Shown in pieces: positions 2,676-7,090 of a stretch of 32,727 bases of DNA (positions are counted from its first letter, which is position 1; the number at the start of each line of letters is the position of its first letter). The stretch covers positions 1 to 32,727 of the forward strand of contig AQUH01000010.1 of NCBI GenBank assembly GCA_000371745.1, written 5' to 3'. Position numbers and translations under genes: made by a program. The notes under the pieces were generated by a model. It made no database searches. It was not told the origin of the DNA and saw only the letters and a list, made by a program, of their open reading frames with translations. The stretch is from an alpha proteobacterium SCGC AAA280-B11 (GTDB lineage Bacteria > Pseudomonadota > Alphaproteobacteria > Pelagibacterales > Pelagibacteraceae).

Positions 2676-3262
2676 TGAAAGATATAATTTTAGCATCCGC
2701 AAGTGGGATAAGGCTAAAAATATTAAAAGATTATGGTTTTAATGTTAGGGCTATTCCGGCGGGCATAGATGAAGATGAAATAAAAAACTCATTGTTAAAT
2801 GATAGATTTACGTCTTTTGATATTTCACGAGCTCTCGCAGAAACAAAAGCAAAAAAAATAAGCAGCAAATTTATGAATGAAATGGTTTTGGGTGCTGATC
2901 AAGTTTTAGATTTTCAGGGCAAGATATTTAACAAACCAGAGAATATGGAATCAGCTCTTAACTTAATGAAAAAGTTAAATGGAAATATTCATTTTATATT
3001 TAGCTCTATTTGTTTAAGTAAAAATAATGCTGTTATTTGGATGCACACCGAAAAAGTCATTTTAAAAATGAAAAAATTGTCAGATGAATTTATTAAAAAT
3101 TATTTAGATAAAGTGGGTTTGGAAATAATAAAACAATACGGGGTTTACCAAATCGAGGGCCAGGGTAAAGAATTATTTGAACAAATCCAAGGAGACGAAT
3201 ATTCTGTTATGGGAATGCCAATTAAGCAATTAATGAATTATTATAAAATAAATGAAAAATAA
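2675..3262 (+). CDS. maf: Maf family nucleotide pyrophosphatase
   Basis: ILASASGIRLKIL, VLGADQVLDFQGKIFNKP and the C-terminal YQIEGQGKELFEQIQGDEYSVMGMP match Maf proteins. Confidence 0.93.
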   Translation: MKDIILASASGIRLKILKDYGFNVRAIPAGIDEDEIKNSLLNDRFTSFDISRALAETKAKKISSKFMNEMVLGADQVLDFQGKIFNKPENMESALNLMKKLNGNIHFIFSSICLSKNNAVIWMHTEKVILKMKKLSDEFIKNYLDKVGLEIIKQYGVYQIEGQGKELFEQIQGDEYSVMGMPIKQLMNYYKINEK

Positions 3263-3644
3263 AAAAAAATTTGTGGTTATTGGTAACCCAATAAAACATT
3301 CTTTATCTCCCTTTTTGCATAATTATTGGTTTAAAAAACTTAAATTAAATTGTGAGTATAAAAAATTAAAAATAATTATGAACCCGGCGATGATTGTTAC
3401 TTGGTTAACAGGCTTATCAATCTTATGGGTTCTAGGATTTAATACTATCTTTTCTTTGTGGTTATCGATTAAATTTTTATTTGTAATTATTCTATCCGGC
3501 TATCATGGTTTTTTATCCAAATGTTTGAAGGATTTTGCGCTAGATAGAAATACTAGAAGCTCAAAATTTTTTAGGTTTATAAATGAAATACCAACTATAA
3601 TATTGATAATCATTGTTTTTTTAGTTATTTTTAAACCCGCTTGA
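3252..3644 (+). CDS. Chimeric ORF: N-terminal fragment of shikimate dehydrogenase (AroE) joined to C-terminal part of HemJ
   Basis: The first ~38 aa, MKNKKKFVVIGNPIKHSLSPFLHNYWFKKL, are AroE-like. From about residue 42, IMNPAMIVTWLTGLSILW...SGYHGFLSKCLKDFALDRNTRSSKFFRFINEIPTIILIIIVFLVIFKP is HemJ (UPF0093)-like. Neither protein is complete. Confidence 0.85.
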   Translation: MKNKKKFVVIGNPIKHSLSPFLHNYWFKKLKLNCEYKKLKIIMNPAMIVTWLTGLSILWVLGFNTIFSLWLSIKFLFVIILSGYHGFLSKCLKDFALDRNTRSSKFFRFINEIPTIILIIIVFLVIFKPA

Positions 3645-4983: not shown

Positions 4984-5637
4984 TTAGTGAATTCTTCTTT
5001 CAGAATCTGGATTATTCCCAAGGATATAAAAATTTATTATTTGGTTTATTAATAGATTTCTCTCAAGTACCGTTTTTGCCTCAAGCAAACCTTGTTTTTC
5101 ACTAACAGAAAAAGGACATATCATTGATAAGGAATTTATTAACTGATCGGCCTCAACCTTTTCTACAATTTTCCAATCTGTAGATAGATGATGGATTTTA
5201 AATAGCTTTCTAGCTTTATCTATTAATTGAAGTACATCAATTTTATCATTAAATTTTATTTTTTCTAAATCATCTAAAAATTCATCATAGGTCACTCTAA
5301 ATTTTCTATAAGGAAGATCTGTCTCTGCTTCGTCCAAAACTCTAAATCTAATTAAACCTTTTAAATTTATTAAATATCTACCATCAGCTGTTTTGGTGTG
5401 ACTGTCTATTTTCCCAAGACAACCAACGCTAAATACTTCTGGCTTTTTTGGATTATTACTTTGTTTAGTTTGGATCATGCCAATCATTTTATTTGATGCT
5501 AGAGCATCTTCGATCATTTTTTTATATCTTGGCTCAAATATATTTAATGGCAAAATTGTATTTGGAAAGAACACCGCATTTGCAAGTGGAAAAATAGATA
5601 TCTCTTGAGGAATTTCTTTTTTATTTAGAGTTGTCAT
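4984..5637 (-). CDS. LON peptidase N-terminal domain protein
   Basis: ISIFPLANAVFFPNTILPLNIFEPRYKKMIEDAL...GMIQT...VGCLGKI...LINLKGLIRFRV is the LON substrate-binding domain without protease or AAA domains. Confidence 0.9.
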   Translation of the reverse strand: MTTLNKKEIPQEISIFPLANAVFFPNTILPLNIFEPRYKKMIEDALASNKMIGMIQTKQSNNPKKPEVFSVGCLGKIDSHTKTADGRYLINLKGLIRFRVLDEAETDLPYRKFRVTYDEFLDDLEKIKFNDKIDVLQLIDKARKLFKIHHLSTDWKIVEKVEADQLINSLSMICPFSVSEKQGLLEAKTVLERNLLINQIINFYILGNNPDSERRIH

Positions 5638-5728: not shown

Positions 5729-5803
5729 GCGGGTGTAGCTCAGTGGTAGAGCGAATCGTTGCCAACGATTAGGTCGTGGGTTCAATTCCCTTCACCCGCT
5801 CCA
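5729..5803 (+). tRNA. tRNA-Gly(GCC)
   Basis: Cloverleaf: acceptor GCGGGTG/CACCCGC, D-arm GCTCAGTGGTAGAGC, anticodon arm AATCG-TTGCCAA-CGATT, T-arm GTGGGTTCAATTCCCTT (imperfect stem), ending TCCA. Confidence 0.95.
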
Positions 5804-5805
5804 AA
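5781..5805 (+). repeat. att-like direct repeat, copy 1 (within the tRNA-Gly 3' end)
   Basis: TTCAATTCCCTTCACCCGCTCCAAA, identical to 7024-7048. Confidence 0.88.
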
Positions 5806-5806
5806 T

Positions 5807-6805
5807 CTATAAAGTTAGCAATAATTTATATAATCTTATATTTTCAATATATAATTTAACACATTTACAGAAATTAATTATGGTATTGCTGTATTTTTTT
5901 TCTAATAATACTTTATTTGTTAGGTCTTCATTAATAGATTTTTCACAAGAATCCATAATTCCAAGAATAACTTTTTGAGTTTGGTTGCCAGGGAATATTT
6001 TTAAAAAATTGTTAATATTTTTTGGTATTTCTTGTTTTTTAAAGATTAAGTCTTCATTAAAATAATAACGATTATCTTTTTTTATAAAATTGAAATTAAC
6101 GTTATTATTATTTAATCCTTCAACAAATAAAGACTGATTTGGAATATTAAAAGATTTGTATTCTTCAGGAAAAAATCCCCAAGTGATAAAAAACTCAATA
6201 GGATCCATATCCGATGTGTATTCACAACATATTTCTTCATCTTTTTCCATTAATTGGTTATTGGCAATAGATACAGATTTATCATCTACTAGATATTTTT
6301 TTCCATGATAATGAAAATTAATTATATCTAATATAGGCATTAAAACTTTTTCATTATTTTTGTTTGTAGTAGATCTTGTTAAAAAAGTAACAAAAACAAA
6401 TTGTTCATTATTATTTAAATGTTCAAAGTGTTTTAAATGATTTAGCAAAATTTTTTTTAAAAACGAATTTTTTTCTACAATTTGAATCATTAAGTCCTTT
6501 TCTAAAGGATCACAAAAGCAGGGATGGTGTTCTTTATAAAATTCTATACTAGGAAGTGTTTTTATATACGCATTTAGAAAATCAATATGAGGATATTCAA
6601 TTTTTTTACCATCTAAAAAATCAAGAAAATCTTTTGCATTAATTGTTAAAATAAATGGCACTTTAATTAATGTCTCTTCTTGTTTTAATTGTTTTTTAGC
6701 AAAGAAACCCCAACCCGAATCTTTATTATATTTTGTATATAAGTCATCATGTATGTAGCCGTCATATTTTTTAAATAATTCTATTAAATAATTGACCTGT
6801 GACAT
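5807..6805 (-). CDS. SET-domain protein, Rubisco LSMT/SETD-like lysine methyltransferase
   Basis: N-terminal GWGFFAKKQLKQEETLIKVPFILTINAKDF, central PILDIINFHYHG and EEICCEYTSDMDPIEFFITWGFFPEEY resemble the SET core (GxG, N-H, E-x-x-x-x-Y) followed by a C-terminal helical region. Confidence 0.75.
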   Translation of the reverse strand: MSQVNYLIELFKKYDGYIHDDLYTKYNKDSGWGFFAKKQLKQEETLIKVPFILTINAKDFLDFLDGKKIEYPHIDFLNAYIKTLPSIEFYKEHHPCFCDPLEKDLMIQIVEKNSFLKKILLNHLKHFEHLNNNEQFVFVTFLTRSTTNKNNEKVLMPILDIINFHYHGKKYLVDDKSVSIANNQLMEKDEEICCEYTSDMDPIEFFITWGFFPEEYKSFNIPNQSLFVEGLNNNNVNFNFIKKDNRYYFNEDLIFKKQEIPKNINNFLKIFPGNQTQKVILGIMDSCEKSINEDLTNKVLLEKKYSNTIINFCKCVKLYIENIRLYKLLLTL

Positions 6806-6952
6806 TATTATTTTTTAAATGTCTGTAATTATTTTTTAAGAATAAATTTTATATAAAGAATCTATATGTAATTTTTATTTGCTGATTAATTAAACTATAA
6901 AGATAATTTTAAAAAACTTACGCACTTGTCACACACTTTGGTCCAGAATCTC

Positions 6953-6986
6953 AGGCAGACAACTTTCTAAAATAGGCAGACAACTT
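6953..6986. repeat. Pair of 13-bp direct repeats AGGCAGACAACTT (6953-6965, 6974-6986)
   Basis: Direct sequence identity, 21-bp start-to-start spacing; flanked by the inverted repeat TCCAGAA (6942-6948) / TTCTGGA (6988-6994). Confidence 0.8.
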
Positions 6987-7023
6987 CTTCTGGAAGCATT
7001 GATTTTACTAGCATAGCGAGGTC

Positions 7024-7048
7024 TTCAATTCCCTTCACCCGCTCCAAA
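7024..7048 (+). repeat. att-like direct repeat, copy 2 (displaced tRNA-Gly 3' end)
   Basis: TTCAATTCCCTTCACCCGCTCCAAA, identical to 5781-5805, with no tRNA 5' part upstream. Confidence 0.88.
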
Positions 7049-7090
7049 ACAGCAAACAAAATAACTTTAATCTGATATAAGAAAGTAATT

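Follow-up and report, generated by a model that had tools for sequence, protein, structure and literature searches.

The window, which is the whole stretch of 32,727 nucleotides analysed here (contig AQUH01000010.1 of the alphaproteobacterium SCGC AAA280-B11, Pelagibacteraceae), raises the question of how a single gene has come to lie between a tRNA-Gly gene and a second, perfect copy of the 3' end of that tRNA. Streamlined marine bacteria exchange genes heavily and seemingly contain few mobile elements, and the vehicles of this exchange are mostly unknown. For SAR11, the mechanisms of gene exchange are unknown (PMC7542561).

The 25-bp repeat TTCAATTCCCTTCACCCGCTCCAAA occurs in the window in two exact copies, both on the plus strand, at 5781-5805 and 7024-7048. 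No further copy is found in the window when up to three mismatches are allowed, and none is found in any of 100 shuffled windows. Copy 1 is the 3' end of tRNA-Gly(GCC), which is intact, and copy 2 is not accompanied by a tRNA 5' part; the far boundary of the islet is a direct repeat of the tRNA 3' end. The two copies are 1,243 bp apart from start to start. The original prediction, which was made from the sequence of the window, described this pair as perfect att-like repeats with no tRNA 5' half at the second copy, and placed one ORF and roughly 220 bp of noncoding DNA between them; all of this is borne out by the measured layout, in which a single minus-strand ORF (5807-6805, 332 aa) terminates 1 bp from the left core and the remaining 218 bp (6806-7023) are noncoding. 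The islet contains no integrase gene, no integration or transfer gene, and no virion, packaging or phage-dependent gene, and an Rfam scan detects tRNAs only. With one ORF and no integrase, the islet is cargo-only, as one of the predicted options had it. Its left neighbours are rho and a LON-domain gene, and its right neighbours are phhB and purH. The features of the locus are as follows.

4984-5637, minus strand: LON substrate-binding-domain protein, left chromosomal neighbour (PF02190)
5729-5803, plus strand: tRNA-Gly(GCC), integration target, intact (ARAGORN; Rfam RF00005)
5781-5805, plus strand: attL core, copy 1 of the 25-bp repeat at the tRNA 3' end (exact repeat)
5806-5833, plus strand: left junction, without left-arm sites and with marginal likeness to the left ends of other elements
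5807-6805, minus strand: cargo gene, 332 aa, SET-like (presumably LSMT-type), full length by alignment to homologs of 21-26% identity
6806-7023, no strand: right part of the islet, noncoding
6927-6938, plus strand: candidate extra arm-type site TGTCACACACTT, identical to the left-arm sites of G017 (another genus)
6947-7023, plus strand: right-end module common to three other elements
6954-6965, plus strand: R1, GGCAGACAACTT, putative integrase arm-type site
6975-6986, plus strand: R2, GGCAGACAACTT, putative integrase arm-type site, 21 bp from R1
7024-7048, plus strand: attR core, copy 2 of the 25-bp repeat (exact repeat)
7049-7090, plus strand: attB chromosomal flank, colinear with the empty sites in L036 and L037
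7091-7429, plus strand: pterin-4a-carbinolamine dehydratase (phhB), right chromosomal neighbour (PF01329)

In a hemJ-like ORF (UPF0093) elsewhere in the window, at 3252-3644, residues 9-62 match a second Pfam family, that of the shikimate dehydrogenase N-terminal domain (E 1e-9), and only the residues from 35 onward match at the rho-linked locus in relatives of the same genus. This ORF possibly represents a frameshift, a fusion or an assembly error.

The cargo had been predicted to be a SET-domain gene. PF00856 (SET) is the sole Pfam family matched by the window protein, but the match is weak (E = 0.17) and lies below the gathering score, so that the protein can at most be called SET-like. The same family is matched by two of three full-length homologs, with E values of 0.043 and 0.089, below the curated cut-off. 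The window ORF aligns end to end with homologs of 344-346 aa, and its DIIN/EEI..EY pattern is, we assume, that of an LSMT-type SET protein. A single-sequence AlphaFold model of the protein is unusable (pLDDT 34). From its sequence, the cargo may be a divergent SET-like methyltransferase, an enzyme activity that we treat as a lead only. The SET gene is not detected in 100 close relatives, and full-length homologs are present among 398 genomes of the order only at 21-26% identity, in another genus. In the three genomes that encode them (L124, L125, L126), the genes for these proteins of ~345 aa are flanked by a suf-type Fe-S gene cluster on one side and by glutamine synthetase on the other, a chromosomal locus that is unrelated to the tRNA-Gly site. 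Close relatives of the SET-like protein are absent from viral contigs, phages and plasmids. The SET gene and the second repeat are therefore not an ancestral possession of all relatives at this locus.

Empty sites, which the original prediction had proposed as a check, are found in two genomes of the same genus, G008 (L036) and G002 (L037). In both, a single core is followed by phhB ~45 bp on, and the core-phhB interval is colinear with 7049-7090 of the window. The exact core is present in 59 of 396 genomes of the family, and at least two copies are present in only five of these 59, namely G000 (the genome of the window), G001 and G009 of the window's genus and G017 and G038 of another genus. 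At these low counts, copy 2 of the window does not belong to a widespread repeat, and the 25-mer is not a frequent sequence unrelated to tRNA-Gly. The same site also holds other cargo in other genomes, as had been anticipated. The two cores in the tRNA-phhB interval are separated by 2.37 kb in G009 and by 23.8 kb in G001, and the interval contains other cargo with one core in G004, G018/G031, G032 and G040. As a separate observation, a peroxiredoxin (AhpC/TSA) gene is present in the tRNA-phhB interval of two distant genomes of the same genus (L117:3383-3946 and L033:3936-4499), once within a cassette and once close to phhB without visible ends.

For tyrosine integrases with lambda-type arm sites, short repeated sites flanking a core in a tRNA 3' end are expected. 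The right end of the window islet (6947-7048) consists, in this order, of two GGCAGACAACTT sites 21 bp apart, a 37-bp spacer and the core. By their position and repetition, the GGCAGACAACTT sites are putative arm-type sites, to which an integrase would bind. This right end recurs at 89-97% identity in three more genomes (G009, G003 and G001) and in no others among the 396 family genomes, and the cargo differs in all four. The cargo of G009 consists of a 280-aa protein without a Pfam match and a beta-lactamase-fold protein, that of G003 of two proteins without a convincing family, and that of G001 of a large gene set. The alignment of the right ends breaks off at AAATCTCA just before the first site, indicating that the cargo is joined directly at the arm sites. 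The left ends of G001, G009 and G003 have ~70 bp after the core in common, which close with one or two 11-bp GGCAGACAACT sites. Arm sites are absent from the left end of the window islet, where the first 28 bp after the core show only a marginal likeness to the other left ends (0.4-2% of the 28-mers of the window score equally). Neither the arm sites of the right end nor the lack of such sites at the left end formed part of the original prediction. The additional site TGTCACACACTT is located 15 bp before R1 and is identical to the left arms of G017; its degenerate pattern is expected 0.08 times per shuffled window. Its presence suggests a composite history of the islet.

The right-end pattern has no match in viral contigs, phages or plasmids. 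A degenerate tandem-arm pattern was detected in six viral contigs, but these candidates were dropped, because the contigs contain no related integrase, element gene or SET gene by tblastn and the sites are not beside a tRNA.

The most distant host of this right end is G003, in which purH, LON and phhB are 75%, 73% and 75% identical to those of the window, respectively. The right ends of G000 and G003 are identical at 69 of 74 positions (binomial p 5e-5 at the purH rate of 75%) and those of G001 and G003 at 72 of 74 (p 1e-7 against 75%), values that serve as a guide only, because the test ignores constraint on the end sequence. A right end that is 93% identical between hosts whose purH is 75% identical has moved horizontally. 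The closest ends are those of G001 and G003, whose hosts are far apart, and this incongruence points to transfer. These results bear on the possibility that cargo is exchanged at a hotspot by homologous or illegitimate recombination without an integrase, such that only the ends and flanks are common. Cargo does follow the tRNA with a single core at several loci of the family (L035, L042, L044), and recombination in SAR11 is reported to be high (PMC7542561). However, such exchange leaves unexplained the perfect second copy of the core and the paired arm sites, as well as near-identical ends in hosts with 25% different flanks, and we regard it as unlikely.

A search for an integrase elsewhere, which had also been suggested at the outset, yields a matching element at tRNA-Gly in G001. 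This element of 23.8 kb (L033:3766-16001 plus L034:1-12053) encodes a tyrosine-type integrase of 411 aa, which matches a PHROG integrase family with an E value of 1.5e-12 and gives weak N-terminal Pfam matches. It also encodes a serine recombinase, an N6/N4 DNA methyltransferase, a Pif1/Dda-type helicase, a 1,125-aa fusion protein with Cas4-like, RNase H-like and AAA helicase domains, a trypsin-PDZ protease and an 8-repeat DUF4116 protein. Neither a relaxase nor a conjugation gene is identified in it. A 2.1-kb contig of G003 (L038) runs from cargo through R1, R2, the core and the left end to the 3' end of an integrase gene, which lies ~75 bp from the core and is 95% identical in nucleotide sequence to the integrase gene of G001. 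Because the right end, core, left end and integrase are present in one piece, this contig defines the attachment site and ties the integrase to the module. The G003 assembly is fragmented and L038 is not joined to a tRNA, so that the contig could represent a tandem, a circle or a copy located elsewhere. An integrase of the G001 type is not found in the window's own assembly, which is 55% complete. Integrases with 27-32% identity are encoded in G009, G349, G298 and G247, but they were not taken as evidence for the tRNA-Gly site, because no tRNA is present in the stretches of 12.6-18 kb around them.

The two integrase-bearing elements also have a noncoding stretch in common (L033:4650-4775, plus strand; L038:1925-2085, minus strand), which lies in front of a cargo ORF, shows 88% identity over 111 bp and is missing from 58 other relatives. 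This stretch, for which Rfam gives no match, folds as a long hairpin (z = -3.4; 2 of 200 shuffles are equally stable) and may serve as an origin of the element or as a leader RNA.

The original prediction had also allowed for a decayed phage. The 3' ends of tRNAs are used by phages as well, and a SAR11 prophage in tRNA-Val has been reported (PMC7542561), so that the islet might be the remnant of a prophage or a phage satellite. However, no virion or structural gene is recognised among the scanned ORFs of the 23.8-kb relative, in which some small ORFs lie outside the scan, and neither the integrase nor the SET-like protein nor the right end has a close relative in phages or viral contigs. The decayed-phage option is thus disfavoured, and we consider this origin very improbable.

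The repeat, the shared ends with swapped cargo and the partner integrase lead to the explanation that the window islet is a cargo-only derivative, comparable to a cis-mobilizable element (CIME), of a family of integrative elements that inserts into the 3' end of tRNA-Gly(GCC). We consider this explanation likely. The proposal that a tyrosine-recombinase attachment site at the tRNA 3' end bounds a cargo-only islet accordingly gains support from the empty sites, the other cargo and the matching integrase element. According to the proposed mechanism, the autonomous form, represented by the 23.8-kb segment of a sister genome, would supply a tyrosine integrase that binds the GGCAGACAACTT arm-type sites beside the core and cuts within the 25-bp core. 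Insertion would rebuild the tRNA 3' end and leave the second copy of the core at the far end. Cassettes would consist of two ends and one or two cargo genes, with the integrase supplied from elsewhere or the backbone deleted, and the window islet would be a case with one SET-like gene, the left arm sites of which were lost or never present. With its left arms missing for either reason, the islet is probably no longer excisable and now frozen.

Other islets at this tRNA differ in the state of their ends. The G009 islet has complete left and right ends, contains two cargo genes and no integrase, and retains both attL and attR. The peroxiredoxin gene of G001 and the gene for the 280-aa protein of G009 are each followed by AAATCTCA-GGCAGACAACTT (with one mismatch in G009), which passes straight into cargo or left-end-type sequence without an intervening core. 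Such coreless junctions are expected if, in two tandem cassettes, the first right arm recombines with the last left arm, an event that would join both cargos as a single unit. In G012, AAATCTCAGGCAGACAATTT stands behind a hydrolase gene and directly adjoins the phhB promoter region; this is a further state beyond the fused cassettes, in which the core is lost. In G017 (genus g6), three cores follow tRNA-Gly, a single-gene cassette encoding a 198-aa protein is located between the first two, and paired 11-bp sites stand beside the cores (TGTCACACACT on the left and GGCACACACTC on the right). In G038, the pairs are TGTCAGACAAT and TGTCAGACACT, and one element gene is a relative of a G001 gene (31% identity, E 4e-29). 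Variant paired arms in the same architecture in genus g6 (L039, L134, L136) indicate that this architecture is not peculiar to one genus. Stacked cassettes are seen at the same tRNA-Gly of genus g6 in L039:3738-6224, L134, L135 and L136.

Two alternatives exist within the explanation as a cargo-only derivative, and the probability that we assign to that explanation is the sum of theirs. In the first, a full integrase element carried the SET gene as its right-end cargo, and everything between the SET stop codon and the edge of the left core was deleted, so that the gene was never a one-gene mover. The slot just left of R1 does hold cargo in the integrase-bearing relatives, and the missing left arm sites and the end of the SET gene 1 bp after the core are as this deletion would leave them, but an endpoint exactly at the core edge requires either a coincidence or a second core-like site. 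In addition, the integrase-less G009 islet has both ends, so that one-step remnants are not generally needed. We give this alternative slightly less than an even chance. In the second, the SET gene moved as a small circle of core and arms by means of the integrase of another element, and the left arms were lost after insertion. Mobilisation of this kind in trans would account for the G009 islet with both ends and no integrase inside, for the one-gene cassette of genus g6 that is stacked with another insert at the same tRNA, and for the movement of the right end between divergent hosts. It is weakened by the absence of left arms from the window islet and by the lack of an integrase source in the 55% complete window assembly, and we hold it to be possible, a little short of probable.

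A more general proposal is that an attachment module of ~170 bp, composed of right arms, core and left arms, is portable and may be combined with interchangeable cargo of one or two genes. The module would be moved in trans by a tyrosine integrase, and the 12-bp arm repeats flanking the cargo would fuse cassettes by dropping the att site between them, giving an integron-like but tRNA-built system in streamlined, ocean-type bacteria. We regard this proposal as tentative and rather doubtful. If it is true, the entry and exit of single genes at a fixed tRNA site are explained by one integrase together with a short end sequence; the integrase and the two ends have been identified, as has the empty site.

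The kinds of elements with which this islet can be compared are known from several bacteria. CIMEs are cis-mobilizable elements described for elements related to ICESt1 (PMC5704250). In the part of that account compared here, they are att-bounded islands without integration and transfer genes, and they accrete in tandem with related elements at a tRNA or another target to give complex composite islands; in both respects the islets at tRNA-Gly are alike. They are unlike CIMEs in that the cargo can be one gene, in that the related autonomous element (G001) has no identified relaxase or conjugation gene, and in that composites are apparently formed when the entire att site between arm repeats is lost. 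Whereas a CIME has attL and attR, the window islet has both cores and the right arms without left arms, and its attL is incomplete.

Cassettes of this sort are on record from streamlined aquatic bacteria. In Ca. Actinomarinales, gene cassettes at tRNAs are recognisable by a direct repeat of the tRNA (PMC7771536), and fGI-2 of Ca. Methylopumilus comprises islands with a tRNA-Lys repeat, which range from 330 bp to 42 kb and from 1 to 63 genes (PMC10872708). These additive flexible genomic islands resemble the islets at tRNA-Gly, as far as the sections compared describe them, in being small tRNA-inserted cassettes that end in a direct repeat of the tRNA 3' end, and tRNA-repeat cassettes are therefore a kind already known. 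The lineages and the tRNAs are different, and the same sections describe the repeats but make no mention of arm-type end modules shared with an integrase element or of fusion junctions.

Tycheposons of Prochlorococcus are tRNA-targeted cargo elements of marine bacteria with a tyrosine recombinase and are 4-200 kb in size, according to the portions of the accounts compared (PMC10872708, PMC11389934). The 23.8-kb relative in G001, which has a recombinase, would fit this general description, a likeness drawn from the description only. Unlike the tycheposons so described, the window islet is 1.24 kb in size and has neither a recombinase nor a replication gene. The cassettes also resemble MITEs and CALINs, which are non-autonomous and depend on transposases and integrons, respectively (PMC11389934). 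In these, short ends are recognised by an enzyme encoded elsewhere, and cassette arrays lack a recombinase. By contrast, the core at which the tRNA-Gly cassettes recombine is the 3' end of a tRNA, accompanied by separate arm-type sites, and not a transposon end or an attC site. As far as the compared portions of this literature show, with tycheposons compared by description, what would be new here is the end module common to the cassettes and the integrase element, the fusion junctions, and the occurrence of such a site in the window's family.
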